Positions 726-15,226 of a stretch of 15,226 nt of DNA are shown here, piece by piece. Location of the stretch: the NCBI GenBank assembly GCA_025456165.1, contig JALOLI010000004.1, positions 1 to 15,226 on the forward strand, given 5' to 3'. Within the stretch, counting starts at the first letter, position 1. Every line of letters begins with the position of its first letter. The notes under the pieces were generated by a model. That model ran no database searches, had not been told where the DNA came from, and saw only the letters and a list, made by a program, of their open reading frames with translations. A program made the position numbers and the translations under genes. The DNA is from Acidimicrobiia bacterium (GTDB lineage: Bacteria > Actinomycetota > Acidimicrobiia > UBA5794 > UBA11373).

Positions 726-1529
726 TCAGGTCCCCCCCGCCCGCCGGTCCAGCCACGGGGGGTCCGAAACCCCGAGGCCCGGCTCCGGGCCGACCGCCTC
801 GGGGTCGTCACGGAAGAGGTCGTGCTCAGGGGGGCGCACGAGCTCATCCAGGCTCCCCACCCCGGGCGGGGTGGGCATGCCGCTCACCACCACCGCGGGC
901 GTCCCGGCCGCCTTGGCCATGAGCATGCCGCCGGCCGCGGCGAGCTCATCGGCCAGGGCCTGGTCGGTGGCCACCAGCGTGCGCCCCTCGCGGTCGGAGC
1001 CCCCGCGGTGGTCGACCACCCCCCGCAGGCCCGCCAGGCCGATCGCCACGTTCACCAGCCCCCGCCGGAAGGCCCGCCCGTGGGTGTCGATCACCACCAC
1101 CCCGACCCGGCCGCCGAGGGCCTCGGCCAGGCGGTGCTGGATCAGCCGGGCCGAGGCGTCGGGGTCCCGGGGGAGCAGCACCACCCACCCGTCGGCCACG
1201 TTGGAGGCGTCGATCCCGGCGTTCGCGCAGACCAGGCCGTGGTGGGTCTCCGAGATCACCGTGGCCCGGCGGCGGCGGAGGATCCGGCGGCTCTCGCGGA
1301 GGATGAGCTCACACAGGGCCGGGTCCTTGCCGGTCTGCTCGGCGAGTGCCCGGGCCCGCGGGCCCGGCACGACCGACGCGAGCTCGACCAGACGCCCCTC
1401 GGCCTTGCTCACCACCTTGTGGGCCACCACCAGCACGTCGCCGGGGCGCATCCCGGCCGCCCAGGCGGCGTCGGCGAGCAGCCCGGGCAGGTCGTCGCCC
1501 GGGCGCACCTCGGGCAGCCCGGCCAGCAC
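726..1529 (-). CDS. cofE: Coenzyme F420-0:L-glutamate ligase, single-domain
   Basis: Adds gamma-linked L-glutamates to F420-0 with GTP, the last step that produces F420-n. The 267-residue product has the family hallmarks: opening VLAGLPEVRPGDDL, HKVVSKAEGR at about 37-46, ETHHGLVCANAGIDASN at about 94-110, VVVIDTHGRAFRRG at about 145-157, a GLVNVAIG segment, and VRPPEHDLFR near the C terminus. These cover the usual metal- and GTP-binding segments. The GTG at 1529 is chosen because family members begin with this Leu-Pro-Glu-hu-x-Pro-Gly motif. A longer frame reaches 1835 but would lie inside cofC. It starts 17 bases after the cofC stop. It corresponds to the N-terminal domain of mycobacterial FbiB; the C-terminal nitroreductase-like domain that reduces dehydro-F420-0 is absent, so that activity, if needed, must be encoded elsewhere. 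Confidence 0.93.
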   Translation of the reverse strand: MLAGLPEVRPGDDLPGLLADAAWAAGMRPGDVLVVAHKVVSKAEGRLVELASVVPGPRARALAEQTGKDPALCELILRESRRILRRRRATVISETHHGLVCANAGIDASNVADGWVVLLPRDPDASARLIQHRLAEALGGRVGVVVIDTHGRAFRRGLVNVAIGLAGLRGVVDHRGGSDREGRTLVATDQALADELAAAGGMLMAKAAGTPAVVVSGMPTPPGVGSLDELVRPPEHDLFRDDPEAVGPEPGLGVSDPPWLDRRAGGT

Positions 1530-1546
1530 CTGCAGGGTGACCCCGC

Positions 1547-2209
1547 TCAGGCCGGCTGGGCGCTTGCGCGCGCGAGGTCGGCGACGCCGATGCGGGCGAG
1601 CACGGCGCGGGTCGCGCCGGTCGGCCCGGCCGCCCAGAGGGCGACGAGGTCGTCGGGGGTGTCCACGTCCAGGCCGATCCGCGGGTGCTGGATCAGCGCC
1701 ACCCGAAGGCCGCGGCGCTCGGCCTGGGCGAGGTGCCGGGCGAGCGAGTCGGGCCCCAGCCGGGGGACCAGGGCCTCGGGCGGGCGGATCAGCATCGCGT
1801 TGGTGCCGGTGCCGGCCGCCGAGGCGACCAGGCACACGCCCGGGGCGGCCGGGGCGGCCTCGACCACCTGATCGAGATCGTCAGCGCGCACCAGCGGCAG
1901 GTCGGCGGTGAGCACCAGCGCCGCGCCCCGGGCGGCGGCAAGACCCACCGAGACCGCGGCGTTCATCCCCCGCGGGGGCGCGTGGTCGGGCAGCCAGCGG
2001 GCCCCGTGGGCGCGGGCCATCGCGCGCGCGTGCGGGTCGGCGGTCACCACGATGACCTCCCGCACCCGCCGGGCCCCGGCGCAGGCGGCGAGCACGTCGG
2101 TGAGCATGGCCTCCTGCAGCTCGCGCCGGGCCTCGCGCGGGAGCACCCCCGACAGGCGCCCGAGGGCCCGGTCCAGGCGCTTGACCGGGATCACCGCGCT
2201 CACCCTCAC
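1547..2209 (-). CDS. cofC: 2-phospho-L-lactate / phosphoenolpyruvate guanylyltransferase
   Basis: Activates the three-carbon phosphate (phosphoenolpyruvate in actinobacterial FbiD, 2-phospho-L-lactate in archaeal CofC) with GTP, giving the donor used by CofD. The 220 residues form a small Rossmann-like nucleotidyltransferase: N-terminal VIPVKRLDRALGRLS (the usual KxLxxAKSRLS region), GMNAAV at 81-86, the DLPLV motif at 103-107, GTGTNAML at 133-140, and GLDVDTPDDL at about 179-188. Family length is about 200-230 residues. The start GTG at 2209-2207 overlaps the cofD stop by 4 bases (GTGA), a sign of translational coupling. The substrate (PEP or 2-phospholactate) cannot be settled from sequence; fbiD would be the actinobacterial name. 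Confidence 0.92.
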   Translation of the reverse strand: MRVSAVIPVKRLDRALGRLSGVLPREARRELQEAMLTDVLAACAGARRVREVIVVTADPHARAMARAHGARWLPDHAPPRGMNAAVSVGLAAARGAALVLTADLPLVRADDLDQVVEAAPAAPGVCLVASAAGTGTNAMLIRPPEALVPRLGPDSLARHLAQAERRGLRVALIQHPRIGLDVDTPDDLVALWAAGPTGATRAVLARIGVADLARASAQPA

Positions 2210-3141
2210 GCGACACCCGCCCCGAGCGCGGCGAGCACCGCGCCGGCCAGCCGCTCCCGCGCCGCGCGGTCGGGCATGAGGATGTCGGTGACCACCGGGC
2301 GCACCCCGAGGGCGGCGATCGCCTCGGCCTCACCCTCGTCGGTGTGGTCGATCAGCATCGTCGCGCACACATCCGCGTAGATCCGGGCCATCTCGGTGGC
2401 CGAGCACTCATCGTGCCCGGCCCCGGCCAGGAACCGGCAGCCCGGCCCCTCGACCGGCCGGCGCCCGACGATCGGGCTCACCGCCACCACCCGATCGCGC
2501 CGGGCGGCCACCGCCTCGCGCACCCCGCCCACCGCGAGGATGGTGCCGATCGAGACCACCGGGCTCGAGGGGCAGATCACCACCGCCTCGGCCGCCGCGA
2601 TCGCCTCGAGCACCCCGGGCGCGGCCTGGGCCCGCTCGATGCCCCGGAACTCGATCCGGGTGATCTCCTCCCCCGCCCCGTGCTTGACCAGGTACTCCTG
2701 GAAGGTGCGCTCGCCCTGCGGGGTGGTGATCCGGGTGGCCACCGGCTGGTCGCTCATCGGCAGCACCCGCGCGGCCACCCCCAGCCGGGCGCACAGGTCG
2801 GCGGCCACGGCCGACAGCGGATGGCCCTCGGCGAGCATCATGGTGCGGTGCAGGTGGGTGGCCAGATCCCGGTCGCCCAGGCCGAACCACGCCTCGCGCC
2901 CGTAGGTGGCCAGCCCCTCCAGGCAGCGGAAGGTGTCCTCGGCATACCCCCAGCCCCGCGCATCGACCACCCCGGCGAGCACATAGGTGCAGATGTCGAG
3001 GTCGGGGCAGACCCGGAGCCCGTAGAAGTCGGCGTCGTCGCCGGTGTTGACCACCACCGTCAGGCGCTCCGGGCCGGCCACCCGGGCCAGGCCGTCGACC
3101 ATCTTGGAGCCGCCGGTGCCCCCCGACAGGGCGACGATCAC
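2206..3141 (-). CDS. cofD: 2-phospho-L-lactate transferase (FbiA-type)
   Basis: Transfers the phospholactyl or enolpyruvyl phosphate from the guanylylated donor to the deazaflavin Fo, making F420-0 or its dehydro form. The 311-residue product begins VIVALSGGTGGSKMVDGLARV, the glycine-rich signature of CofD/FbiA. It also shows VNTGDDADFYGLRVCPDLD, AWFGLGDRDLATHLHRT, and later ICPSSPVVSIGTILAV and SPIVGRRPVEGP, which form the GDP/Fo-binding cleft in known members. The GTG at 3141 is preferred because the family signature starts there. An in-frame GTG at 3198 adds 19 basic, Pro/Arg-rich residues and would overlap the exporter gene by 29 bases. Neither start has a clear ribosome site. The 4-base overlap with cofC shows one operon. 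No Fo synthase (fbiC or cofG/cofH) is in the window. Confidence 0.92.
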   Translation of the reverse strand: MIVALSGGTGGSKMVDGLARVAGPERLTVVVNTGDDADFYGLRVCPDLDICTYVLAGVVDARGWGYAEDTFRCLEGLATYGREAWFGLGDRDLATHLHRTMMLAEGHPLSAVAADLCARLGVAARVLPMSDQPVATRITTPQGERTFQEYLVKHGAGEEITRIEFRGIERAQAAPGVLEAIAAAEAVVICPSSPVVSIGTILAVGGVREAVAARRDRVVAVSPIVGRRPVEGPGCRFLAGAGHDECSATEMARIYADVCATMLIDHTDEGEAEAIAALGVRPVVTDILMPDRAARERLAGAVLAALGAGVA

Positions 3142-3169
3142 GAAAGGGCGGCGGGCTCGGGGGCGCGGC

Positions 3170-4087
3170 TCACGGCGGGGGCGAGCGTAGCGGACCACCG
3201 CCGGCGGGGGCGGGGGCGGGCTCCCGGGCGGGCCCCGGGCGGAGCACCAGCCACAGCCCGAGCGAGACCAGGGCCATCCCGGCGATGAGCTGGCCGGTGA
3301 GCGGCTCGCCGAGCAGCGGCCAGGCGGTCAGGACCCCGACCACCGGGACCAGGAAGAACCAGGCCGAGACCTCGCTCGCCGGCGCGCGGCCGAGGGCCAG
3401 GTAGAAGAGCGCGAACGGGAGCGCCGACCCGACGATCGCGGTGAGCCAGATCAGGCCCACCTCGCGCGCGCCGGTCTGCTCCGGGCCCCCCTCGACGGCC
3501 AGGCCGAGGACGGCGAGCACCCCGGCGCCCAGCACCATCTGCCACCCGGCCAGGGCGACCGGGGCGGCCGTCGTCTGCAGGCGCCGGGCGGCGGCCACCG
3601 TGCCGATGGCCCAGGCGAGCGCCCCGCCCACCACCACCAGCGCCGCGCCGGAGACCTCCGGGGGCCAGATCGGCCCCTCCCAGACCACCACCGCCGCCCC
3701 CACCAGGCCCAGGCCCAGGCCCGTCCACTGCCCGCCGGACAGCCGCTCGCCGAGGAACGGCACCGAGAGGGCGGCCACGAAGAGCGGGTCGGTGTTGGCC
3801 AGCACCGCCGCCAGGCCGGCCCCGCCGTGGGCGATGCCGTAGAAGGTCGCCCCGTAGAAGAGCACGGTCTGGGTGAGGGCGAGCACCACGACCACCCCGA
3901 CCCCCGTCCGCGGCCGCAGCGGCATCCCGAGCGCCATGAGCACCCCGATCAGGATGAGCCCCCCCAGGCCCATCCGCGCGGCGGCGGCCACCAGCGGCGG
4001 CCAGGTCTCCACCAGCCAGGCCGAGGGCACGTAGGCCACCCCCCACCCGGCCATCGCCCCCACGGCCAGGAGGGTCCCCGGCCTCAT
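3170..4087 (-). CDS. EamA/DMT-family membrane transporter
   Basis: A 305-residue, highly hydrophobic protein with about ten predicted membrane helices arranged as two EamA repeats, roughly residues 5-135 and 145-285. Typical features are the opening LLAVGAMAGWGVAYVPSAWL, the loop FYGIAHGGAGLAAVLANTDPLFVA with a following FLGERL, and in the second half GSALPFALFYLALGRAPASEVSA then PLLGEPLTG. The G-E-R/P-L pairs at the end of each repeat are common in this family. Members export amino acids, nucleosides, metabolites or riboflavin-like compounds; specificity cannot be read here. It starts 13 bases after the TRAP permease stop and runs to or into cofD, so it sits between carboxylate uptake and F420 synthesis in one transcription unit. 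Confidence 0.85.
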   Translation of the reverse strand: MRPGTLLAVGAMAGWGVAYVPSAWLVETWPPLVAAAARMGLGGLILIGVLMALGMPLRPRTGVGVVVVLALTQTVLFYGATFYGIAHGGAGLAAVLANTDPLFVAALSVPFLGERLSGGQWTGLGLGLVGAAVVVWEGPIWPPEVSGAALVVVGGALAWAIGTVAAARRLQTTAAPVALAGWQMVLGAGVLAVLGLAVEGGPEQTGAREVGLIWLTAIVGSALPFALFYLALGRAPASEVSAWFFLVPVVGVLTAWPLLGEPLTGQLIAGMALVSLGLWLVLRPGPAREPAPAPAGGGPLRSPPP

Positions 4088-4100
4088 CGCGAGGCCCGGA

Positions 4101-6119
4101 TCAGTGCACCAGGTTGGAGAGCGCCAACACCACCTCGGCGGGAAGGTAGGTGACCAGGAACAAGACCAGGATGCTCACCGCCAGCCACGGGATGATCATC
4201 AGCGACAATCGCTCGATCGACACCCGGGCGATCGAGCTCACCAGGAACAGCACCAGCCCGATGGGCGGGTGGATGAGCGCCAGCACCAGGTTGAAGACCA
4301 TGATCAGCCCGAAGTGCACCGGGTCGATCCCGAAGGTCTCCACCGCCACCGGGGCCAGGAACGGCGCGAGGATCGCGAGCGCCGGCAGGGGCTCGATGAA
4401 GATCCCCACCACCAACAGCAGGATGTTCACCAGCAGCAGGAACACGTACTTGTTGCTGGTCAGGTCGGTGAGGAAGGTCTCGATCGTCGAGCCGAAGTCG
4501 TTGATGAACAGGACCTTGGCCAGGATGTAGGAGTCGCCCAGCAGCAGCAGCACGATCCCGGTCTCCACCGCGGCGGCGGTGAAGATGGTGGGCAGCTGCC
4601 CCGGGCCCACGCTCGCGTACCAGAAGAGCGCAAGGCCGATGGTGACCACCGCGGCGACCGAGGCCGACTCGGTCGGGGTGAAGACCCCGGTGAGGATGCC
4701 GCCCAGGATGATCACCGGGATCGCGAGCACCGGCAGCGCCACCCCGCCGGTGCGGGCGACGGTGCGCATGCCGGAGAAGGGCCGCTTGGACAGGAACCCC
4801 ATCCGGCGCACCACGATGTAGACGGTGATCGCCTGGAAGATGAGCAGCAGCAGCTCGGCGAACACCCCGGAGAGCAGGAGCTTGGAGATCGACGCCGACC
4901 CGGGGCCGGTGACGATGAAGCCGTAGACGATGAACATGATCGAGATGGGCCCGATCGGTCCCTTGATCGAGGCGCCGGCGACCACCGCGGAGGCGACGTC
5001 GCGCGGGTAGCCCTCCTTCTCCATCGCCGGCACCAGGAGCGGGGTCATGATCGCCGCGTCGGCCTGCGCCGAGCCGGAGATCCCCGAGACCAGGGCCGAG
5101 GTCACCTGGCACACATAGGCCATGCCCCCGCGCAGGTGGCCGATCATCGCCGCGGCGAAGCGGATGAGCCGGTCGCTCATCCCCGAGGCGTTCATCACCT
5201 CGGCCACCACCAGGAACATCAGGATGACCAACAGCTCGGTCCCGCCCGAGAGGCCCATGATCGACTGGGTGGTGCGGAAGGGAAAGAGCGGGTCCACGCC
5301 GATCTCGGGCCAGAAGGTCAGCCCGAGCACCGACATCGTCGAGAGGATCCCGACGATCGAGAGCATGAACACGATCGGGTTCCCGGCGATCGTGAGCACC
5401 ACGAAGATGACCAGCAGGGCCAGGAGCTTGGACAGGTTGGTGCTCATCACCCCCTGCTCGCCGAGCAGGAGGATCCCCCGGCAGGCCAGCCACAGCGCCG
5501 CGCCCACCGTCAGGGCGCCGATGATGGCCACCCCCACCACCCGGCCCGCCGGCCGCCCCCGGGCGGCCAGCCGGGCCGCCCCGGCCGTGGCCCCCTGGGC
5601 GAAGTGCAGGGTGATGAACCAGTAGCCGATCGTCATCGAGGCGATGGCGTAGAAGAACGGCACCCCGAGGGCCGGCGAGTCGGTGTCGAGCGAGCTCGGG
5701 CTGATCGCGTACTGGGTCGAGCGCACGCAGCAGTAGGGCAGCAGGATCGCCAGCGACAGCCCGCTGAAGGTCCTGACCGAGGCCTGCCACCACCAGGGCC
5801 CGCGCCCCGAGACCAGGGTGATCACGGTCACCGCGCCGCGCTTGACCGCGAGCGAGACCCCCATCCAGATCACCCACAGGAAGGCGAAGCGCGCGAACTC
5901 CTCGGATCCGAAGATGGAGTAGCCGAGCAGGTAGCGGGTGAAGACGTTGATCGCGAGCGCCGCCACCACGGCGGCCGCCGCCCCCACCGCGATCGTGCGG
6001 GCGATCCGCACCGCGGCCTGGGAGTAGACCTCGAGCCACCCGGCCAGGCGCTCGAGCCCGTGCGCGAGCGCAGGCGCCTCGGGCGGGATGGCCGGGGTGG
6101 GGGCGGCGGCGCTCGTCAT
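4101..6119 (-). CDS. TRAP transporter fused small/large permease (DctQ-DctM)
   Basis: A 672-residue inner-membrane permease that pairs with the receptor encoded just upstream to import an organic acid with a cation gradient. The N-terminal part (about residues 35-185) is the four-helix DctQ unit, with NVFTRYLLGYSIFGSEEFARF followed by WVIWMG, its usual signature. The C-terminal part (about 215-670) is the DctM unit, with ALLVIFVVLTIAGNPIVFML, then VSGISGSAQADAAIMTPLLV followed by PAMEKEGY and VAGASIKGPIGPIS, which match the discontinuous helix and substrate/cation motifs of DctM. Fusion of Q and M is common in bacterial TRAP systems and matches the summed length. The ATG at 6119 is 57 bases after the receptor stop, with a large hairpin in the gap. 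Confidence 0.93.
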   Translation of the reverse strand: MTSAAAPTPAIPPEAPALAHGLERLAGWLEVYSQAAVRIARTIAVGAAAAVVAALAINVFTRYLLGYSIFGSEEFARFAFLWVIWMGVSLAVKRGAVTVITLVSGRGPWWWQASVRTFSGLSLAILLPYCCVRSTQYAISPSSLDTDSPALGVPFFYAIASMTIGYWFITLHFAQGATAGAARLAARGRPAGRVVGVAIIGALTVGAALWLACRGILLLGEQGVMSTNLSKLLALLVIFVVLTIAGNPIVFMLSIVGILSTMSVLGLTFWPEIGVDPLFPFRTTQSIMGLSGGTELLVILMFLVVAEVMNASGMSDRLIRFAAAMIGHLRGGMAYVCQVTSALVSGISGSAQADAAIMTPLLVPAMEKEGYPRDVASAVVAGASIKGPIGPISIMFIVYGFIVTGPGSASISKLLLSGVFAELLLLIFQAITVYIVVRRMGFLSKRPFSGMRTVARTGGVALPVLAIPVIILGGILTGVFTPTESASVAAVVTIGLALFWYASVGPGQLPTIFTAAAVETGIVLLLLGDSYILAKVLFINDFGSTIETFLTDLTSNKYVFLLLVNILLLVVGIFIEPLPALAILAPFLAPVAVETFGIDPVHFGLIMVFNLVLALIHPPIGLVLFLVSSIARVSIERLSLMIIPWLAVSILVLFLVTYLPAEVVLALSNLVH

Positions 6120-7657: not shown

Positions 7658-8680
7658 ATGGCCGAGCAGTTCGCCGTGACGCAGATTCCCGGTGCCGAGA
7701 CCGGGGAGATCCCGCCCTCGCCCGTCGACCGTGACGAGAAGACGGCTTTCATCTACTCGCTCGTCGACCCCATCTGGGACATCGACACCCTTCCGCTGAC
7801 CTACACCAACTCGCGTTGGTCGGCGTTCTTCTACCGGGCCGACGAGAAGCACCTGCGTCGCGTCCTTCCCGACTGCCTTGAGCTCGAGGACGACATCGTC
7901 GAGTTCTGGTACGTCGACCACAACCACACCATGCTCGGCCCGTACGGCGAGATGGGTGTGACCGTGGCCGCCTCCCACAAGGGTGGCGACGGCAAGACGT
8001 ACTACGCCGGGTACTACCCCTACATGTACCTCACGCAGGACGCCGCGATCGACGCCGGTCGCGTGCTGGGCTTCCCCAAGAAGGAGGCCTTCATCCGCGT
8101 GCTGGAGCACGGTGGGGCGCCTGACGACGGCTACGGCCTCGAGACCAAGCAGTACCAGTTCGACTACTTCTCGTTCCTGATGGTCCGGAACGGGTACGTG
8201 CTGCACTCGGCCACCGGGAAGTACGACGACGCCGACCTGTCGGCCAAGCCGGCCTTCTACGGCAACACCGAGTACGGCCGCATGAACATGAAGGTCGTGA
8301 CGAGCCCGGACATCGCCCAGTCCGAGTGGCAGCTGGTCTACCTGCCCTCGCTGGTCACCAAGGACCTGGCCACCGCCATGGGCCGCCCCGAGAGCGAGGG
8401 CTCCCACCGCTTCCAGGTCAAGCCGGAGTCGATCCGGACCGCCTCGCCGTCCAGCATCAACTGGTTCATGCAGGCGACTCCGTACGACAACCTCGGCCAC
8501 GAGCTGCCGCCGAAGGAGCTGATCGGTCTCATGACCTTCAGCTTCGACCTCATCATCCCGGCCGGCCAGACCCTGTGGACGGAGACCTACACCCGCGACG
8601 CCACGTGGGCCGGCGCCGCCAAGCCGTACCGCTTCGGTCTGCGTCACCGCTTCCCGAAGCCCGTCGGCCTCGGCGCGTAG
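7658..8680 (+). CDS. Acetoacetate decarboxylase-family protein, first copy
   Basis: A cytoplasmic enzyme of the acetoacetate-decarboxylase fold, 340 residues, clearly longer than classical Clostridium enzymes of about 245. The extra length is mainly an N-terminal extension of about 25 residues and insertions in the middle and C-terminal half. Key positions can be matched: Arg53 in YTNSRW (Arg29 of the clostridial enzyme), Glu98 in GPYGEMG (Glu76), and Lys141-Lys142 in GFPKKEA (the Schiff-base Lys115 with its pKa-tuning neighbour). The equivalent of Glu61 is not obvious. It could be a decarboxylase of a beta-keto acid, or, as some family members do, an aldolase/dehydratase working through the same lysine. 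AAGGGGGA precedes the ATG at 7658. An in-frame extension to 7286 is rejected because it enters the divergent promoters. Its codons (many CGT, CTT, TTC, GAC) suggest high expression. Confidence 0.85.
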   Translation: MAEQFAVTQIPGAETGEIPPSPVDRDEKTAFIYSLVDPIWDIDTLPLTYTNSRWSAFFYRADEKHLRRVLPDCLELEDDIVEFWYVDHNHTMLGPYGEMGVTVAASHKGGDGKTYYAGYYPYMYLTQDAAIDAGRVLGFPKKEAFIRVLEHGGAPDDGYGLETKQYQFDYFSFLMVRNGYVLHSATGKYDDADLSAKPAFYGNTEYGRMNMKVVTSPDIAQSEWQLVYLPSLVTKDLATAMGRPESEGSHRFQVKPESIRTASPSSINWFMQATPYDNLGHELPPKELIGLMTFSFDLIIPAGQTLWTETYTRDATWAGAAKPYRFGLRHRFPKPVGLGA

Positions 8681-8704
8681 CGACACGACCCTCACTCCCC
8701 CGGA

Positions 8705-8732
8705 CGGGGGCCCGGCCTGGCCCGGGTCCCCG
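8705..8732 (+). promoter_or_regulatory. Hairpin between the two ADC-like genes
   Basis: GGGGCCCGG and CCGGGTCCCC can pair (one bulged T) around a short loop in the 82-base gap. No T tract follows, so this is more likely an mRNA stability or processing element than a terminator; both genes could still be read from one promoter. Confidence 0.4.
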
Positions 8733-8762
8733 CACCGGATCCCGTCGAAGGAGGCTTAGCGC

Positions 8763-9779
8763 ATGGCGCAGCTGAACGTCACGAGCGTTCCGTGGGTCGA
8801 CTCGGGCGACGCCCCGCCGCTCGCTCTGGACCGTGACAAGCGCGACATCATCTCGCAGGGCATCGCGGACCCGCTCGTCGACTACGACATCGTCCCGCTG
8901 ACCTACACCAACTCCCGTTGGTCGGCGTTCTTCTACCGGTGCGACGAGAAGGACCTGAAGCACATCCTTCCGAAGTGCCTGGAGCTCGAGGACGACGTCA
9001 TTGAGTTCTGGTACGTGGACCACCTGCACACCGGCCTCGGCCCGTACGGCGAGATGGGCGTCACCGTCTCGGCGTCGTGCAAGGGCTCGGATGGCAACAC
9101 GTACTACGGCGGGTACTACCCGTACATGTACCTCACGCAGGACGCGGCCGTGTTCGCCGGCCGGGAGCCCTTCGGCTTCCCGAAGAAGATCGCCTACATC
9201 GTCACCCAGGAGCACGGTGGCAAGGAGGACGACGGCTACGGCGGCTTCGGCAACGACTACTTCAACTTCACCCTCGAGCGTCGCGGCTACCTGATCCACA
9301 CCGCGACCGGCCGCTACGACGACGCCGAGCTTCCCGCGAAGCCCGCGTTCTACGGCGACCCGCGCTACGGGCGGATGAACCTCCGGCTCATCACCGACCC
9401 GTCGCTTCGCACCACCAAGTGGGACCTGACCTACCTTCCCTCCGAGGTCACCAAGGCGACCGCCATCGCCATGGGCCGCCCGGAGACCGAGGGCCAGCAC
9501 CGGTTCCAGCTCAAGCCCGAGTCGATCCGCACGGCCTCGGCCAACGCGATCCGCACCTGGGCCCTGCAGGCCACGCCGTTCGACAACCTCGGCGCGATGA
9601 TGCCGGTCAAGGAGCTCGTGGGTCTCATGAGCTTCAACTTCGACCTGATCATCCCCGGCGCGCAGACCGTCTGGACCCAGACGATCGAGCGCACCGACGA
9701 GGACATCGCGGACCTGCTCTTCGCGACGCCGTACCAGTACACGATGCGGCACCGCTTCCCGAAGCCCCCGGGCGTCTGA
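8763..9779 (+). CDS. Acetoacetate decarboxylase-family protein, second copy
   Basis: A 338-residue paralogue of the preceding gene, alike along nearly its whole length, with long identical blocks such as PLTYTNSRWSAFFYR, GPYGEMGVTV and YYPYMYLTQDAA. The matched active-site residues are kept: Arg52, Glu97 and Lys141-Lys142 in GFGFPKKIA. So both copies look catalytically competent and neither is a decayed duplicate. Differences cluster in the N-terminal 35 residues and in the segment after the lysine pair, which may mean different substrates or a heteromeric complex. GGAGG lies 9 bases before the ATG at 8763. It is followed directly by a strong terminator, so the two-gene unit ends here. Function within the ADC superfamily is not resolved. 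Confidence 0.85.
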   Translation: MAQLNVTSVPWVDSGDAPPLALDRDKRDIISQGIADPLVDYDIVPLTYTNSRWSAFFYRCDEKDLKHILPKCLELEDDVIEFWYVDHLHTGLGPYGEMGVTVSASCKGSDGNTYYGGYYPYMYLTQDAAVFAGREPFGFPKKIAYIVTQEHGGKEDDGYGGFGNDYFNFTLERRGYLIHTATGRYDDAELPAKPAFYGDPRYGRMNLRLITDPSLRTTKWDLTYLPSEVTKATAIAMGRPETEGQHRFQLKPESIRTASANAIRTWALQATPFDNLGAMMPVKELVGLMSFNFDLIIPGAQTVWTQTIERTDEDIADLLFATPYQYTMRHRFPKPPGV

Positions 9780-9801: not shown

Positions 9802-9838
9802 CCGCCGGCCGGGCCCTGTGCCCGGCCGGCGGCGTTTT
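9802..9838 (+). terminator. Strong intrinsic terminator after the ADC-like pair
   Basis: Exact 13-bp arms (CCGCCGGCCGGGC at 9802-9814, GCCCGGCCGGCGG at 9820-9832) with loop CCTGT are followed by CGTTTT. It starts 23 bases past the stop of the second gene. Confidence 0.85.
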
Positions 9839-9874
9839 GGCGTGCGCTCCGACCGTGCGTCCGACCTTCCCCGG

Positions 9875-9887
9875 TAGGCTCCACGCC
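9875..9887 (+). promoter_or_regulatory. Leaderless-type -10 element of the tyrosinase gene
   Basis: TAGGCT at 9875-9880 lies 7 bases before the GTG start at 9888, so transcription would begin at or next to the start codon. There is no Shine-Dalgarno. No convincing -35 is seen. Confidence 0.5.
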
Positions 9888-11087
9888 GTGGTGCGCCCCC
9901 GCACGCTCATCATCGGCCTGGCCCTCGCCGCCCTCGCCGGCGCCCCGGCCCTCGCCGCGCCCGGCCACGCCGGCCACCCGGCCCCCGCGGCCGCCGATCC
10001 GGTCCGCACCGGGCCCCCGGTCGTCTACCGGGCCGCGGGCCCGCCCCGCGTGCGCAAGGCGGTCACCGACCTCACCGCGAGCGAGCGCGCCCGCCTGGTG
10101 CGCGCCATCCTCATCACCAAGCGCACCCCCTCCCCCTGGGACCGGCGCTTCTCGGTCTATGACAACTTCGTCTGGTGGCACCGGCAGGCCTTCGCCTGCT
10201 CGGTCGACCAGGCCCACATGCGCCCGGCCTTCCTGCCCTGGCACCGGCAGTTCCTGTTCATGTTCGAGTCGGCGCTCCGGCGCTACTCCGGCGATGCCAC
10301 CGTGACCCTGCCCTTCTGGGACTGGACCGACCCCCGGGCGATCGGCGCGGTCTTCCGCCGCGACCTCATGGGCCCGAACGGCGACCCCGCCCAGGGCTTC
10401 GCGGTCACCGAGGGCCCCTTCCGCAAGGGGCGCTGGCGCCTGACCGTCCTCGACCCGCGGGTACAGGACCGAAACCAGATCACCCACCTCACCCGGCGCT
10501 TCGGCTCCATGCGCTTCGGCGGGACGCTGCCCACCCGCGCCTCGGTGCTCGCCGCCCTGCGGCTCCCCGACTACGACGTGCCGCCCTACAGCTCGGCCTC
10601 GGATCCGTCCCTGAGCTTCCGCAACAACCTCGAGGGCTGGCGGGGCATGCTCGGGGGCACCTGCCGCGCGGGCTGGATGGACCCGGTCGCCGGCCGCGGC
10701 CGGCCCCGGCGCGCCCTGCACAACCTGGTCCACACCTGGGTCGGGGGCGAGCTGCCCCCACTGGCCGACGACATCGGCGGCACCATGACCCTGAACACCT
10801 CCCTGAACGACCCGGTCTTCTGGCTCCACCACGCGAACATCGACCGCCTCTGGGCCATCTGGCAGCGCCGCCACCCCGGGGCGGCGGGCTATGCCCCGGT
10901 CCGGGCCGGCGGCCTCCCCTACGGCCAGAACCTCGCCGAGCCCATGTGGCCCTGGCGCCAGGCGGGCCTGTACGTCGCACCGGTCTCGGTGCTCTCCACC
11001 CGGGCCATGGGCTACGTCTACGCCCCCGCCCCGGCCGCCCGGGGTGGCATCCTGCGGCGCCCCGCCGCGCCCGCGGTCACCGGGTAG
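9888..11087 (+). CDS. Secreted tyrosinase-family type-3 copper oxidase
   Basis: A 399-residue exported protein with a binuclear copper site, expected to hydroxylate and/or oxidise phenols to quinones outside the cell membrane. The signal peptide is VVRPRTLIIGLALAALAGAP then ALA-AP, cut near residue 24. CuA ligands are His98, His110 (QAHMRPAF) and His119 (LPWHRQF). The last two are 9 residues apart, as in Streptomyces enzymes. CuB has His278-Asn279 and His282 (LHNLVHTWVGG) and the LHHANIDRLW segment with His314-His315. The Asn after the first CuB His is present. The usual water-holding Glu nine residues before that His is not seen, which could weaken monophenolase activity. GTG 9888 is preferred over GTG 9891 for its -10 spacing; a TTG at 9837 lies inside the terminator. 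No MelC1-type copper caddie is encoded next to it. Confidence 0.9.
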   Translation: MVRPRTLIIGLALAALAGAPALAAPGHAGHPAPAAADPVRTGPPVVYRAAGPPRVRKAVTDLTASERARLVRAILITKRTPSPWDRRFSVYDNFVWWHRQAFACSVDQAHMRPAFLPWHRQFLFMFESALRRYSGDATVTLPFWDWTDPRAIGAVFRRDLMGPNGDPAQGFAVTEGPFRKGRWRLTVLDPRVQDRNQITHLTRRFGSMRFGGTLPTRASVLAALRLPDYDVPPYSSASDPSLSFRNNLEGWRGMLGGTCRAGWMDPVAGRGRPRRALHNLVHTWVGGELPPLADDIGGTMTLNTSLNDPVFWLHHANIDRLWAIWQRRHPGAAGYAPVRAGGLPYGQNLAEPMWPWRQAGLYVAPVSVLSTRAMGYVYAPAPAARGGILRRPAAPAVTG

Positions 11088-11118: not shown

Positions 11119-11162
11119 ATGCCTGGGCATACCGGCATATGGGCATGCCGGCAGCGTGGCAT
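11119..11162 (+). repeat. Array 1: 8-bp-period GGCAT repeats, candidate centromere/operator before parA
   Basis: An inverted start ATGCC (11119-11123), two bases, then GGCAT at 11126, 11134, 11142 and 11158, with the decayed unit GGCAG at 11150. All direct units are exactly 8 bp apart. The consensus unit is GGCATAYN. The first two units form the palindrome ATGCC-TG-GGCAT. A further GGCAT at 11230, still in 8-bp phase (72 bp on), overlaps the parA start. Position upstream of parA and tandem short units match the parS sites of type Ib partition systems, where ribbon-helix-helix proteins bind tandem 7-10 bp units. Confidence 0.75.
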
Positions 11163-11221
11163 ATCGGCGGCGGGGCCGGTGGCCATCGGCCCAGCCGGCA
11201 GGACTCACGGCCATGAGGGCG

Positions 11222-11234
11222 TACTCTCAGGCAT
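11222..11234 (+). promoter_or_regulatory. Leaderless-type promoter of parA with overlapping GGCAT unit
   Basis: TACTCT at 11222-11227 is 7 bases before the ATG at 11235, the same spacing as at the tyrosinase gene. GGCAT at 11230-11234 covers the presumed transcription start, which fits repression by the protein that binds array 1. Confidence 0.5.
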
Positions 11235-12020
11235 ATGGACGGCAACGGAGCTCGGCCTGCGCGCATCGTCACCGTCGCCGCGACCAAGGGCGGCGTCGGC
11301 AAGACCACCCTGGCGTATGAGCTTTCGGCCGCGCTCGGGGGGGTGCTGGTGGACCTGGACTGGGACTCCGGCGGCGCCACCCGCCGCTGGGGCTTCGATC
11401 CGGCCGCCCGCCGCCGCGCGCCCCTGCTGGACGCCCTGGAGTCGGCGCCCGAGGGGCGCCCGCCCCACGCCTATCGCCGCAAGGGCCACCCGGCCCTCGT
11501 GCCGTCCCACCCGGGCCTCTCCGAGGCGGCCGACGGGGCGCTCGACCACGGGGTGATCGCCGACGCGCTCGCCGCCTGGGCCGCGGCGTGGGGGGTCGGG
11601 TGGGTGGTGGTCGACACCCATCCGGGCATCAACTCGATCACCGTGGGGGCCCTGGCCGCCGCCGACCTCATCGTGGTCCCCGCGGTGCTCGCCCCGAGCG
11701 AGCTGGATGCGCTGGAGGGGATGCTCGGCGACCTCGCCGGGGGCGGCTACCGGCTGATGATCACCCTGAACAAGCTCCCGGCCGCCCCGCCCCGGCGCCT
11801 GCTCGCCCGGCTGGAGGCCCTGGTGGCCGCCGCCGGGCCGGCCTACGGGGGCGGCGCCGACCTCGTGGTCGGGCCGGCGGTGAGCCACCACGGCTGGATC
11901 GACCGGCGCGCGCGCCGGAGCGCCCTGGTCCTGCAGCCTGCGCCGGGCCGGCGCACGGAGCTTGCCGCCGGTGAGCTTCGCCGCCTGGCCGACGCCGTGG
12001 AAGGAGCCGCCCGTGGCTGA
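11235..12020 (+). CDS. parA: ParA-type partition ATPase (small, type Ib-like)
   Basis: A 261-residue P-loop ATPase that would move or position replicon copies over the nucleoid. The deviant Walker A KGGVGKTT spans residues 18-25 and includes the signature lysine Lys18. Walker A' is VDLDWDSGG with Asp42, Walker B is VVVDTHPG with Asp127, and the PSELDALEG segment follows. There is no N-terminal helix-turn-helix, so it is the short form that cannot bind its own operator and relies on the small partner protein. The ATG at 11235 has no ribosome site, consistent with a leaderless mRNA. The gene overlaps the next by 8 bases. A repeat array just upstream completes a three-part partition locus. Plasmid partition is favoured over other MinD/ParA roles because of the rep gene nearby. 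Confidence 0.88.
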   Translation: MDGNGARPARIVTVAATKGGVGKTTLAYELSAALGGVLVDLDWDSGGATRRWGFDPAARRRAPLLDALESAPEGRPPHAYRRKGHPALVPSHPGLSEAADGALDHGVIADALAAWAAAWGVGWVVVDTHPGINSITVGALAAADLIVVPAVLAPSELDALEGMLGDLAGGGYRLMITLNKLPAAPPRRLLARLEALVAAAGPAYGGGADLVVGPAVSHHGWIDRRARRSALVLQPAPGRRTELAAGELRRLADAVEGAARG

Positions 12021-12483
12021 CCCCACCCCGAGTCCCGACGGCCTGGCCGAGGCCCGGGCCCGCGCCGAGCGCCGAAGCGCGCGCGCGCCACGCACCCTCC
12101 CGCCCTCCCGCCGCCAGGGCGCCCCGGAGGCCGGCGCGGCCCCACCGGCGGCCTCACCGGCGGCCCCACCGGCGCCGGTGCGCACGCCCCGCCCCCGCGT
12201 GCCCAAGGCCCCCGCCCCCGCTCCCGCCCCCCCCGGAGCCGCGGCGCCGGGCATCGACCTCTCGGGGCTCGCCGACGCCCCCACGGTGGGGCTCACCGCC
12301 CGCATCCGGGTGCCCCTGGACCGCCGGATCGTCGGCCTGGTCAGGGCCCTGCAGGATGAGGGGGTGCGCACCTCCAAGATCGAGCTGATCGAGATGCTGA
12401 TCTCCGAGCTGCCCGAGGAGCTCACCCCGGCCTTCCGGGCCCGGGTCGAGGCCTTCCGCGCGCGGGCCGGCCGCCAGCGCTAG
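12013..12483 (+). CDS. Small ParB-like protein with C-terminal ribbon-helix-helix domain
   Basis: A 156-residue protein starting at GTG 12013, with GGAG about 7 bases upstream and 8 bases overlap with parA. Residues 10-80 are Ala/Pro/Arg-rich and probably disordered; basic N-terminal tails of such partners usually stimulate the ParA ATPase. Residues about 93-133 look like a ribbon-helix-helix: strand GLTARIRVPL, helix DRRIVGLVRALQDEG, turn VRTSK, helix IELIEMLISELP. This fold binds short tandem repeats as dimers, so it is the natural ligand of the 8-bp arrays at 11119 and 13811 and a likely autorepressor of parA. No classical ParB HTH or CTPase motif is present. The RHH call is made by eye from the strand-helix-helix pattern and hydrophobic spacing, not by a search. 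I do not recognise a specific family. Confidence 0.7.
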   Translation: MADPTPSPDGLAEARARAERRSARAPRTLPPSRRQGAPEAGAAPPAASPAAPPAPVRTPRPRVPKAPAPAPAPPGAAAPGIDLSGLADAPTVGLTARIRVPLDRRIVGLVRALQDEGVRTSKIELIEMLISELPEELTPAFRARVEAFRARAGRQR

Positions 12484-12528
12484 CGGCCCGGTGATCCCCG
12501 CGGGCCCGGCGCCCGTACCCCACCCCAG

Positions 12529-13125
12529 ATGGGACTCCTCCGCCGCAGCCCGGACCCCGCCACGCTCGCCGACGAGGAGCTCATCGCGCTGGTCGCCGGC
12601 GGCGACGAGCGCGCCTTCGCCTGCCTGTACGACCGCCACGCCCGGGTGGCCTGGGCCCTCGCCCACCGGCTGCTCGGCGAGCGCACCGCCGCGGAGGACC
12701 TGGTCCAGGAGGCGTTCCTGGCCCTGTGGCGCGGGGCGGCGGGCTACCGCCCGAGCCGCGGCGGGGTGCGCACGTGGCTCCTGGCCATCCTGCGCAACCG
12801 CGGCATCGACCGCCTGCGCACCCAGGGCGCCCAGGCCCGGCGGCAGGGGCTGCTCGAGCAGGAGGAGCAGGTGCTGCGCCCGGCCGGCGCGCCGGCCGAG
12901 GAGGCCGCCCTCGGCGCGGTGCAGGGCCAGGCGGTGCGGCGGGCGCTCGCCCAGCTGCCCGACGACCAGCGCGAGGTCCTTCGCCTGGCCTACTACGGCG
13001 GGTTCACCCATCATGAGATCGCCGACCTGCTCGGGGTCCCGCTCGGCACCGTGAAGAGCCGCATGCGTCTCGGCCTCGAGCGGGTGCGCCGGGCCATCGC
13101 CGGGCCCGAGGGGGTCCTCACGTGA
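12529..13125 (+). CDS. ECF RNA polymerase sigma factor (SigK-like pairing)
   Basis: A 198-residue group-4 sigma factor. Region 2 spans about residues 23-98, with DERAFACLYDRHARVAWALA, the acidic TAAEDLVQEAFLALWRG core-binding helix and SRGGVRTWLLAILRNRGIDR, which would contact the -10. After a short linker, region 4 spans about 136-191, with LAQLPDDQREVLRLAYYGGF and the helix-turn-helix THHEIADLLGVPLGTVKSRM followed by RLGLERVR, which reads the -35. The ATG at 12529 begins 45 bases after the parB-like gene and has no clear ribosome site. TACCCC ends 6 bases before it and could be a non-canonical promoter element. The stop overlaps the anti-sigma start by 4 bases. Its placement inside a partition/replication region is unusual. 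Confidence 0.92.
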   Translation: MGLLRRSPDPATLADEELIALVAGGDERAFACLYDRHARVAWALAHRLLGERTAAEDLVQEAFLALWRGAAGYRPSRGGVRTWLLAILRNRGIDRLRTQGAQARRQGLLEQEEQVLRPAGAPAEEAALGAVQGQAVRRALAQLPDDQREVLRLAYYGGFTHHEIADLLGVPLGTVKSRMRLGLERVRRAIAGPEGVLT

Positions 13126-13811
13126 GCGGCCACGATGAGCTGCGCGACCTGCTCGCCCCGGTGACCCTCGGCGCGGCGACGCCCGAGGAGGCCGCCCGGG
13201 TGCACGCGCACCTTCCCGCCTGCCCGGCCTGCCGGGCGGAGTATGAGGACCTCCAGGCGGCAAGCGACGCGCTCGCCCTCACCCCGCCCCCGGCCGACCC
13301 CCCGGCCGCCCTCCGGCGGCGGGTGCTCGCCGCGGTGCGGGCCGAGGCCCCGGCCGCCCCGGCCCACGCGGCGCGCCCGGGCCGGCGGCTCGGCTGGCCG
13401 GCGCTTGCGGCCGCCCTCGGGGCGGCCTGCCTCGGGCTCCTGGCCTGGAACATCTCCCTCGCCCGCACCCCCGCCGGCGCCGAGCCGGTGCGCCAGGTGG
13501 CCGTGCGCGGGGGGCCGGCCGCCCCGGCGGTCCGCGGCGAGGTGGTCTGGGTGCCCGCCCGGGGGGCGGCGGTCGTGCGCCTGGAGGGCCTGCCCGACCC
13601 CGGGCCCGGCCGGGGCTGGCGCCTGTGGGCCATCCGCGACGGGCGCCCCGAGAGCCTCGGCCAGGTGACCGCGGTCGGCCGCGGCGGCGCCGCGAGCGCC
13701 GGGGTCGCCGGCCTGGCCGGCGTCCAGGCCCTCGCCCTCACGCCCGAGCGGCCCGCCCACCCCGGAGGCCCCACCTCGACCCCGGCCGTGCAGGTGGCCC
13801 TCCCCGCCTGA
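13122..13811 (+). CDS. Anti-sigma factor with zinc-binding ZAS motif and RskA-like outer domain
   Basis: A 229-residue single-pass membrane protein that would hold the preceding sigma factor inactive until a signal causes its release or proteolysis. The cytoplasmic N-terminal domain has the ZAS motif His30-x3-Cys34-x2-Cys37 (HLPACPAC). A basic Pro/Ala linker leads to one membrane helix at about 91-109 (GWPALAAALGAACLGLLAW). The outer part contains WVPARGAAVVRLEGLPDPGP and GWRLWAIRDGRPESLGQVT, typical of the RskA anti-sigma-K C-terminal domain, which in SigK systems is redox- or metal-responsive. The GTG at 13122 overlaps the sigma stop (GTGA), a classic coupled pair. Its stop codon is the first base of the second repeat array. 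The inducing signal cannot be read from the sequence. Confidence 0.88.
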   Translation: MSGHDELRDLLAPVTLGAATPEEAARVHAHLPACPACRAEYEDLQAASDALALTPPPADPPAALRRRVLAAVRAEAPAAPAHAARPGRRLGWPALAAALGAACLGLLAWNISLARTPAGAEPVRQVAVRGGPAAPAVRGEVVWVPARGAAVVRLEGLPDPGPGRGWRLWAIRDGRPESLGQVTAVGRGGAASAGVAGLAGVQALALTPERPAHPGGPTSTPAVQVALPA

Positions 13812-13838
13812 TGCCCTCATGCCCGTATGCCTCGGCAT
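13811..13838 (-). repeat. Array 2: mirror-image copy of the 8-bp GGCAT array
   Basis: ATGCC at 13811, 13819 and 13827, exactly 8 bp apart, then GGCAT at 13834-13838. Read on the minus strand it has the same layout as array 1: inverted ATGCC, two bases, then GGCATAC and further GGCAT units at 8-bp steps. It starts on the last base of the anti-sigma stop codon and extends from its palindromic core toward array 1, so both arrays point inward over the par-sigma block. Confidence 0.72.
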
Positions 13839-14013
13839 ACGGCCAGCGGCCCAGCCGCCCGTCGGTCGTGACGGCCAGGCGCGGCCCGGGGGACTGTCCA
13901 TGAACCAAGGCCCGCCTCCCGGGGAGCGAATCGCCAGCAGATCGGTGACCTCGGGACGTCGCATGTACTGGTGGTACATGTGATCCCGAGGGTGCCGAGG
14001 TGCGCCGCGATGC
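13839..14013. other. Intergenic stretch between array 2 and the terminator
   Basis: No gene supported. It contains one perfect inverted repeat (listed separately) and otherwise no open frame with recognisable content, although a minus-strand frame crosses it as a shadow of the anti-sigma gene. Confidence 0.4.
13962..13980. promoter_or_regulatory. Perfect 19-bp inverted repeat CATGTAC-N5-GTACATG
   Basis: CATGTAC (13962-13968), TGGTG, GTACATG (13974-13980). Weaker outer arms CGGGA (13952-13956) and TCCCG (13984-13988) extend the symmetry. It is A/T-richer than its surroundings and lies between the convergent anti-sigma and rep genes. It could be a regulator site, a resolution/dimer site or a transfer-related site; nothing decides between these. 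Confidence 0.5.
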
Positions 14014-14050: not shown

Positions 14051-14923
14051 CTACGCGGTGGCGGCCAGCCGGGCCCGGGCCCGGGGCGCCCGGGAGGCCA
14101 CGAGCTGGACCTGGAAGCCCTGCTCGGTCAGCACCCGCTCGCGGCTGAAGGCATAGCGGGGGTCCTGCTGGGCGATCGCCTCACACGCCCGCATGACCGC
14201 GGCCACGTTGTCGCGGTCCCGCGCGCAGGTCGAGCCGACCGAGGCGAAGAACGGCGCGCCCAGGTGGTAGGCCTGCCACTCCCGGCCGTCCTCACGCGTC
14301 TCGAAGCGGTCGTTCTCGAGCAGCCCGTAGATCTTGCGGGCGATCGGGGGCAGATCGCGGACGATGTGCCAGTCCAGGTAGGCGCCCGCCTCGTGGCGCA
14401 GCTGCTCGAGGAACCAGCTGCCCAGGAAGATGTAGCCGACCCGGTCGACCCGGCCCTCGGTCACCACCGGCCACATGATGCGATCGATGATCCCGAAGTG
14501 GTCCTCATGGGTCTTGCGCCCGGTCACCGGATCGTTGACCTCGCCCTCCCAGCGGGCCTCCTGCAGGTTCAGCAGCGTGCGCCTGAGCGCCTGGCGCGCC
14601 GGCTTGCCCGAGTCCTGCCAGCCGAAGTCGTGCAGCAGGCGGTACTGGGTGAACGGCACCGCCTGGGCGCCGGCCTCCTCCAGCTGCAGCCAGCGCGAGC
14701 CGAGCCACACGATCGCCATGTAGCCGTGCCGGCCGATGGGGGGGCCGGCGGTCTGGCGGATGGAGCCCAGGCGGTCGGCGATCGCCACCCCGGCGGCCAC
14801 CTCGAGGCCCTTGCGGGCACTGGTGCGGTCGGCGAAGCCGTACCGCAGCGGCTGCTCGAGCCGGCGCAGCTGATCCGGCGCGTAGAGCGTGAGCTGCTCG
14901 GTGGGGGAGGGCGCCCCCTCCAC
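14051..14923 (-). CDS. Plasmid-type replication initiator protein
   Basis: A 290-residue protein whose look and place fit an iteron-binding initiator that opens the origin and recruits the replisome. Segments that resemble initiator winged-helix domains are PFTQYRLLHDFGWQDSGKPA with RQALRRTLLNLQEA (first domain, about residues 90-120), and GYIFLGSWFLEQLRHEAGAY then LDWHIVRDLPPIARKIYGLL (about 163-202). The phrase PIARKIYGLL is typical of RepA-like initiators of actinobacterial and Deinococcus-type plasmids. The GTG at 14923 is 21 bases from the 35-bp dyad; no Shine-Dalgarno is seen. The iterons lie immediately upstream, the standard layout. Family naming is from recall of motif style, so the exact Rep class stays open. 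Confidence 0.72.
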   Translation of the reverse strand: MEGAPSPTEQLTLYAPDQLRRLEQPLRYGFADRTSARKGLEVAAGVAIADRLGSIRQTAGPPIGRHGYMAIVWLGSRWLQLEEAGAQAVPFTQYRLLHDFGWQDSGKPARQALRRTLLNLQEARWEGEVNDPVTGRKTHEDHFGIIDRIMWPVVTEGRVDRVGYIFLGSWFLEQLRHEAGAYLDWHIVRDLPPIARKIYGLLENDRFETREDGREWQAYHLGAPFFASVGSTCARDRDNVAAVMRACEAIAQQDPRYAFSRERVLTEQGFQVQLVASRAPRARARLAATA

Positions 14924-14944
14924 GGCCGGGGGCGGGGCGGGGGT

Positions 14945-14979
14945 GCGCGAGTCAGCTACCCGGGGTAATCGACTCGCGC
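14945..14979. promoter_or_regulatory. 35-bp perfect dyad upstream of rep: two inverted iterons (rep operator)
   Basis: Arms GCGCGAGTC (14945-14953) and GACTCGCGC (14971-14979), with inner arms TACCC and GGGTA at matching distance (3-base spacers) around one central base. Each half is an iteron sequence (GCGCGAGTC-N3-TACCC), here overlapping head to head. In iteron plasmids an inverted pair before rep is where the Rep dimer represses its own gene. Confidence 0.75.
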
Positions 14980-15019
14980 CCCCGGCCGGCCCCCCGGGAC
15001 GGGCGGGCCGGGGGCGCCT

Positions 15020-15057
15020 GGGGTTTTGAAAGGGGTTTTCCTACCCCTACCCCTAGG
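15020..15057. other. Lower-GC tract with short repeats, possible unwinding element
   Basis: GGGGTTTT occurs at 15020-15027 and 15032-15039, then CCTACCCCTACCCCTAGGG. It is one of the least G/C-rich spots of the right half and lies between the dyad and the iterons, where an origin would melt. Confidence 0.4.
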
Positions 15058-15099
15058 GCGGCCAGAAGGCGGCCGTGTGCAGGGAGGATTGGCCTCGGG

Positions 15100-15226
15100 G
15101 CGCGAGTCGGATACCCCGGTCGGCGCGAGTCGGATACCCCGGTCGGGCGCGAGCGCCGTACCCCGGGGCGCGAGCCGCTTCCCCCGGGCCGCGAGCGCCG
15201 TACCGGGGTGGATGGCTCGCGCCTGT
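15100..15226 (+). repeat. Iteron cluster of the candidate origin
   Basis: GCGCGAG starts at 15100, 15123, 15147 and 15168, and a one-mismatch unit CCGCGAG at 15189, giving steps of 23, 24, 21 and 21 bp, about two helical turns. The first two units share GCGCGAGTCGGATACCCCGG; later ones vary in the middle but mostly keep TACC or CCCCGG at the right end. An inverted unit (GGCTCGCGCC, 15215-15224) faces the fifth, again giving a head-to-head pair. More units may lie past the edge. Confidence 0.8.

Follow-up and report, generated by a model that had tools for sequence, protein, structure and literature searches.

Type Ib plasmid partition loci combine a ParA ATPase of 192-308 aa with a small ParB of 46-131 aa (PMC3235114). 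In the par locus of pESBL octamer arrays are found both upstream and downstream of the genes, an arrangement stated for pB171 and pSM19035 as well, and the pESBL ParB binds its octamers in electrophoretic mobility shift assays (PMC7602700). The pB171 constructs are laid out parC1-parA-parB-parC2 (PMC4270457), and pMF1 has arrays on both sides (PMC3235114); a review of type Ib systems puts the centromere upstream (PMC5016525). In TP228, the parH centromere is made of tetramer boxes, which are bound by a ribbon-helix-helix (RHH) protein (PMC7308502). The locus described here lies in a 15,226-nt stretch (the window), i.e. positions 1 to 15,226 of contig JALOLI010000004.1 from an Acidimicrobiia bacterium (assembly GCA_025456165.1). 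There, two mirror-image arrays of GGCAT units enclose four genes: parA, the gene of a small ParB-like protein, and the genes of an extracytoplasmic function (ECF) sigma factor and of an anti-sigma factor. Most probably we are dealing with a partition locus of type Ib whose centromeres are paired, and in which the sigma unit takes no part in partition.

The GGCAT units of both arrays stand on an 8-bp lattice, and the ATGCC-N2-GGCAT core forms the outer end of each (Table 1). An earlier note on this DNA had described two such arrays bracketing the block, and its coordinates, sequence and orientation were found to be correct; array 1 is longer than it gave, since it runs to 11162 via a degenerate GGCAG (11150) and a further GGCAT (11158-11162). 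Array 2 does begin on the anti-sigma stop codon, as had been noted: the TGA (13809-13811) and the array have the A at 13811 in common. It lies between the convergent ends of the par-sigma block and of repA, 212 bp from the repA stop codon.

The two-array observation is real and goes beyond chance. The sequence GGCATNNNGGCAT is present in four copies in the window, all inside the two arrays (expected 0.06; none of 200 shuffles reached four), and ATGCCNNGGCAT in two copies, at 11119-11130 and 13827-13838 (expected 0.02). Over the 15,226 bp, chains of at least two GCAT or ATGC units on the 8-bp lattice are found only in the two arrays, with four consecutive units each, to be compared with a mean of 0.61 chains of at least two units, 0.002 of at least three and 0 of at least four in 1000 dinucleotide shuffles. 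In 655,086 bases of other loci (fetched loci not found through the array, with overlapping loci counted and L102 and L109-L140 excluded), the sole GCAT-lattice chain of at least three units was in front of the parA gene of G412, one of the relatives considered below.

Table 1. Features of the GGCAT-bracketed block and of the adjoining repA region (positions in the window)
Feature	Position	Strand	Characteristics
Array 1 (putative parS1/operator)	11119..11162	+	core ATGCC-N2-GGCAT; GGCAT at 11126, 11134, 11142; degenerate GGCAG at 11150; GGCAT at 11158
Single GGCAT half-site	11230..11234	+	abuts parA start codon
parA	11235..12020	+	261 aa; Walker-type ATPase; PF13614 (AAA_31) 5.5e-11, residues 10-159
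Small predicted centromere-binding protein (ParB, RHH-like)	12013..12483	+	156 aa; 8-bp overlap with parA; relatives have homologues after parA
Putative sigma autoregulatory promoter TGATCC-N16-CGTA	12492..12517	+	inferred from conservation; one exact match in window
ECF sigma factor	12529..13125	+	PF04542/PF08281; TIGR02937 above cut-off
Anti-sigma factor	13122..13811	+	zf-HC2 + RskA_C; NF052375 above cut-off
Array 2 (putative parS2)	13811..13838	-	minus strand ATGCC-N2-GGCAT-N3-GGCAT-N3-GGCAT
repA-like replication initiator	14051..14923	-	convergent with par-sigma block; match to M. oceani plasmid RepA
repA-upstream iterons	14944..15223	-	GGGTA-N2-CGACTCGC-like; 4/5 copies 21-24 bp apart; unlike GGCAT arrays

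Upstream arrays recur in the close relatives. GCAT boxes on a 4/8-bp lattice are found directly upstream of parA in all three of them (Miltoncostaea oceani p2, G405 and G412), each time with a GCAT or ATGC overlapping the annotated or likely parA start, and in G405 the stretch from repA to parA contains two GCAT clusters. The downstream array was recovered elsewhere. The exact core-plus-array pattern was found in none of 42 Miltoncostaeales genomes, but a scan of all IMG/VR contigs for the exact sequence ATGCC-N2-GGCAT-N3-GGCAT-N3-GGCAT returned one contig, L102, in which the array (8162-8189) stands 4 bp beyond the 3' end of a small minus-strand ORF (8194-8643), itself preceded by a ParA gene (8496-9149, minus strand); GGCAT and GGTAT units on the same lattice are further placed upstream of that parA, and no sigma gene is present there. 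In two relatives of L102, L110 and L134 (99.5% identical to each other and each 78-84% identical to L102 in pieces), the stop codon of the small gene is where an array begins, just as array 2 begins on the anti-sigma stop codon. With upstream arrays in three of three close relatives, the same bracket at an IMG/VR par pair and the published type Ib layouts, the paired centromeres suggested by the earlier note are well supported. What does not hold is its statement that no described system has this layout: a type Ib arrangement with octamers flanking parAB at either end has been published (PMC7602700), so that the bracket is a known layout.

Repeats flanking both ends, with other half-sites, were also seen by eye in plasmids of Nocardiopsis, Streptomyces niveus and S. 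europaeiscabiei (the latter with no small ORF annotated at its par locus) and, weakly, of Thermobifida. These came from PLSDB, where 110 records hold a ParA relative; ten were examined, two from M. oceani and eight others, and no sigma factor was annotated near the par pair in any of the ten, nor anywhere in the record of the 46.6-kb M. oceani plasmid. A lattice test was applied to such loci. It is crude, as it takes one exact 4-mer core per locus; the cores picked for L001 and L058 are implausible, and for L102 it settled on ATCA instead of GCAT. L098, where the match is at the record start, was excluded, and L056 has no downstream sequence. Recurrence of the lattice downstream gave P values of 0.076 for Nocardiopsis, 0.022 for S. 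niveus and 0/500 for S. europaeiscabiei. Among all loci it was at or below 0.032 for the window, L097, L100, L101 (period 12), L102 and L001, and 0.076 for L095; the L001 signal, due to an implausible GC-rich core, is not credited.

The earlier note had read the block as parA, parB-like, ECF sigma and anti-sigma. Pfam confirms parA, sigma and anti-sigma; the small protein has no match in Pfam, NCBIfam or PHROGs. The four genes are co-oriented and closely spaced (overlap of 8 bp between parA and the ParB gene, 45 bp from there to sigma, overlap of 4 bp between sigma and anti-sigma). ParA, at 261 aa, falls within the type Ib range (192-308 aa; PMC3235114), matches the ParA of three related plasmids at 55-57% and, because its ATPase domain begins at residue 10, has no N-terminal DNA-binding domain. 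In an alignment of ten sequences, the small ParB is conserved in its C-terminal half and, by eye, resembles a ribbon-helix-helix; the N-terminus is of low confidence in the models, and a sequence search of the PDB returned chains that are unrelated, judging by their names.

Several observations count against paired centromeres served by an RHH-type ParB. AlphaFold single-chain models of the small ParB show helices only, with no strand, and Foldseek, run with two models, gave no match to a solved fold; for this reason the RHH assignment is put forward as a prediction. At 156 aa, the protein also exceeds the type Ib range for ParB (46-131 aa; PMC3235114). No GCAT array follows the small ORF in M. 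oceani p2 or in G405, the two relatives that could be tested (the G412 contig ends there), and the more distant par loci of M. oceani p1 (L006) and G330 (L058) are without any GCAT lattice. The small ParB proteins of the window and of L102 are not detectably related in sequence, and the shared half-site may therefore be a case of convergence or a chance choice; between their ParA proteins there is a distant relationship (24%). Direct arrays of GGCAT that lack the core are not confined to par loci: among 32 such IMG/VR stretches, just two (L110 and L134) are within 2.5 kb of a strict Walker-A frame, for 2.7% of random positions. In the lattice test, there was no downstream recurrence in L006, L057, L058, L094, L096 and L099, nor directly after the ParB gene of the window, and the upstream signal taken alone was not significant for L056 (0.34), L057 (0.385), L097 (0.14) and L102 (0.105); nor was it for L006 (0.145) and L096 (0.075). 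As to the second site, the outcome is thus mixed, with M. oceani p2 and G405 lacking an array after the small gene and an unrelated IMG/VR par pair having the same bracket. In L006, on the 816-kb M. oceani plasmid, GATCAC repeats with 11-bp spacing are present in two pairs (5441-5511), about 430-500 bp upstream of parA; they are possibly a different centromere.

The mechanism that we propose for the paired centromeres is the following. The ParA ATPase and the small, RHH-like ParB would be made from one operon, and at either end of the block ParB dimers would bind the GGCAT half-sites, which follow one another head to tail at 8-bp intervals. Array 1 would be a centromere and, with the half-site that abuts parA, also the operator for autorepression of parA; array 2 would be a second centromere, and its location between convergent genes fits that function better than an operator. 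ParA would then move the ParB-array complexes. The sigma/anti-sigma unit, predicted to be self-contained, would have come to sit between the ParB gene and array 2 through insertion or rearrangement.

Judged on gene content and similarity, the contig is a plasmid related to the order Miltoncostaeales and akin to M. oceani NZ_CP064358. Its RepA-like protein has one relative in 72,556 PLSDB records (E <= 1e-5), the 'replication initiator protein A' of NZ_CP064358 (46.6 kb), at 80% over 92% of its length. In addition, that plasmid carries two ADC-like genes, a TRAP transporter, cofDCE, and parA followed by a small ORF; in G405 and G412, too, the order repA, parA, small ORF is preserved. Scans of viral contigs with RepA and ParA found no relatives, and a scan of genome contigs with ParA gave just four distant matches. 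The window plasmid carries the coenzyme F420 genes cofE, cofC and cofD (726-3198) with a TRAP transporter alongside; a TRAP transporter is beside cof genes in G405 and in M. oceani p2 too, the latter having cofG and cofH in addition. Between array 2 and the 3' end of repA, at 13948-14001, there are nested inverted repeats, TCGCATGTAC/GTACATGTGA within ACCTCGGGAC/GTGCCGAGGT, which were not called as a terminator.

Compared with M. oceani p2 and G405, the parA-ParB pair of the window is inverted relative to repA and the ADC genes, and a tyrosinase gene (9837-11087) that both lack adjoins array 1; this region has therefore been rearranged, and the arrays may have been involved. (Relatives of the tyrosinase, at 55-58%, are found in G414, G428 and G303, with an in-frame stop in two of these.) The bracket could then be an inversion scar: recombination at two GCAT arrays, within or between them, would have turned the block of parA, ParB, sigma and anti-sigma around, so that one array travelled with parA and the other stayed by repA. 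The two GCAT clusters of G405 would suit such an event, as would the alignment of the arrays and about 10 bp of their outer flanks, 79% over 39 bp in inverted orientation. However, the 3' flank of the window repA has no similarity beyond chance to the repA-parA intergenic regions of the relatives, and array 1 with its start-codon half-site already matches the layout of G405. We consider this origin of the bracket unlikely.

What, then, is the sigma/anti-sigma pair doing inside the bracket? Among NCBIfam models, the SigK-type PRK09646 ranks second for the sigma factor; because its score of 151 bits is below the cut-off of 226, the protein is SigK-like and not a SigK orthologue. In the anti-sigma factor, a hydrophobic stretch, a candidate transmembrane segment, is visible by eye. 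Homologues of the anti-sigma factor occur in 15 of 42 Miltoncostaeales genomes, at 20 places; that of M. oceani is on the main 3.68-Mb contig (G410:C1), with a weaker one on the 816-kb plasmid. The motif TGATCC-N16-CGTA lies within about 70 bp of the sigma match in nine of the 11 nearest homologue loci (L066-L073 and L076), about 450 bp upstream in L074, and is missing in L075 and in all nine more distant loci (L077-L085); its conservation points to promoter activity in front of sigma. Two of the nine motif-bearing loci are chromosomal, since they are on contigs of over 3 Mb (G410:C1 and G079:C1), the rest being on draft contigs, and the unit presumably came from a chromosome. An extended form of the motif occurs 17 times in four genomes, versus once for a reversed control. 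These sites include one divergent pair each in M. oceani (G410:C1:130559-130679) and in G412 (G412:C42:4151-4250), where Ferritin_2 genes and tatC are close by (domain assignments being from M. oceani only); together with the copies in front of sigma homologues, the pairs are a candidate regulon of this ECF sigma factor. The protein cluster to which the window sigma factor belongs covers 6 contigs, of which the longest measures 25,890 bp. The proteins closest to those of the window outside its own clusters are 75-79% identical for sigma and, among about 8,000 candidates scored, at 78% for anti-sigma, on contigs under 1.5 kb: a diverged sister lineage therefore exists.

The earlier note had linked partition to the sigma switch. 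In its strong form, this would be a functional par-sigma module: ParB at both arrays would loop or silence the block, and copy number or segregation would control an envelope-stress sigma switch. The four genes are indeed co-oriented and tightly packed, array 2 touches the anti-sigma stop codon, and no terminator-like site was found in the four-gene block, so that read-through is possible. Yet tblastn with the window sigma and anti-sigma (E <= 1e-3) found the unit at none of 18 comparison loci, a set that includes G412 (which ends at the small ORF), L059 and L060 (repA loci at which parA has no close match) and L110 with its near-identical counterpart L134. A conserved promoter motif of its own precedes the unit, and the stretch from the ParB gene to sigma holds no GGCAT; array 2 is between two convergent gene ends and as such an unlikely operator site, and in L110 a par pair that lacks sigma likewise has an array starting on its stop codon. 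Such a module is very improbable, and on present evidence the idea that the par module includes the sigma unit as a conserved component was rejected. Judged by the refuting condition that the note itself had set, a lack of sigma genes in most relatives, the sigma part of its proposal fails; nothing beyond gene order and the missing terminator speaks for the link. In a variant that we hold to be slightly less probable still, the switch would have been captured inside the paired centromeres and be modulated by ParB loading, spreading or bridging, making a stress-responsive partition module; if true, it would couple plasmid copy or segregation state to the envelope-stress regulon. The pair reads best as a passenger with a putative promoter of its own.

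It is extremely unlikely that array 2 serves RepA, as an iteron or in copy control, instead of ParB, and the arrays as RepA iterons were rejected: array 2 is close to the repA stop codon, but repA has its own, different upstream iterons, here and in three relatives (L001, L056 and L057), and the half-site and geometry of array 2 are those of array 1 at parA.

Three things are new in this partition locus: GGCAT as the half-site in this lineage, the return of that half-site beside a small ParB that appears to be unrelated, and the presence of the sigma unit within the bracket. Searches of a literature collection on ECF sigma factors with partition and on Miltoncostaea plasmids gave no report of this layout. 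The locus adds putative GCAT/GGCAT octamer centromeres to a little-studied actinobacterial order. The same half-site, spacing and bracket at a par pair whose ParB is not detectably related should help to find type Ib loci in which no domain can be recognised in ParB. As to the sigma unit in the bracket, it is a curiosity that would matter only if its expression responded to ParB; the conserved TGATCC-N16-CGTA motif offers a testable regulon for this Miltoncostaeales sigma factor.

Among known systems, the sigma unit is closest to what we take to be the hallmarks of SigK/RskA-type pairs, namely sigma regions 2 and 4, zf-HC2 and RskA_C domains and a conserved motif before sigma, all of which it shares. 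What sets it apart is its place on a plasmid, with par genes on one side and a centromere-like array on the other. For the par locus itself, the TP228 ParF-ParG-parH centromere is comparable in that it consists of tetramer boxes and spacers, as the window has GCAT boxes with 4-bp spacers; however, the TP228 spacers are AT-rich, and the available text places the operator upstream of the genes and names no downstream array (PMC7308502). The octamer of pESBL, an IncI plasmid of E. coli, is GATAACAA, unlike that of the window, and no sigma/anti-sigma genes are mentioned in the part of the paper at hand (PMC7602700). In pB171 par2 (PMC4270457) and pSM19035 (PMC5016525) the repeat units are again different, and the accessible portions of these sources mention no ECF unit; like the window, both are type Ib with arrays on both sides, pSM19035 having several parS (PMC5016525) and the upstream array of pB171 regulating the operon (PMC7602700).

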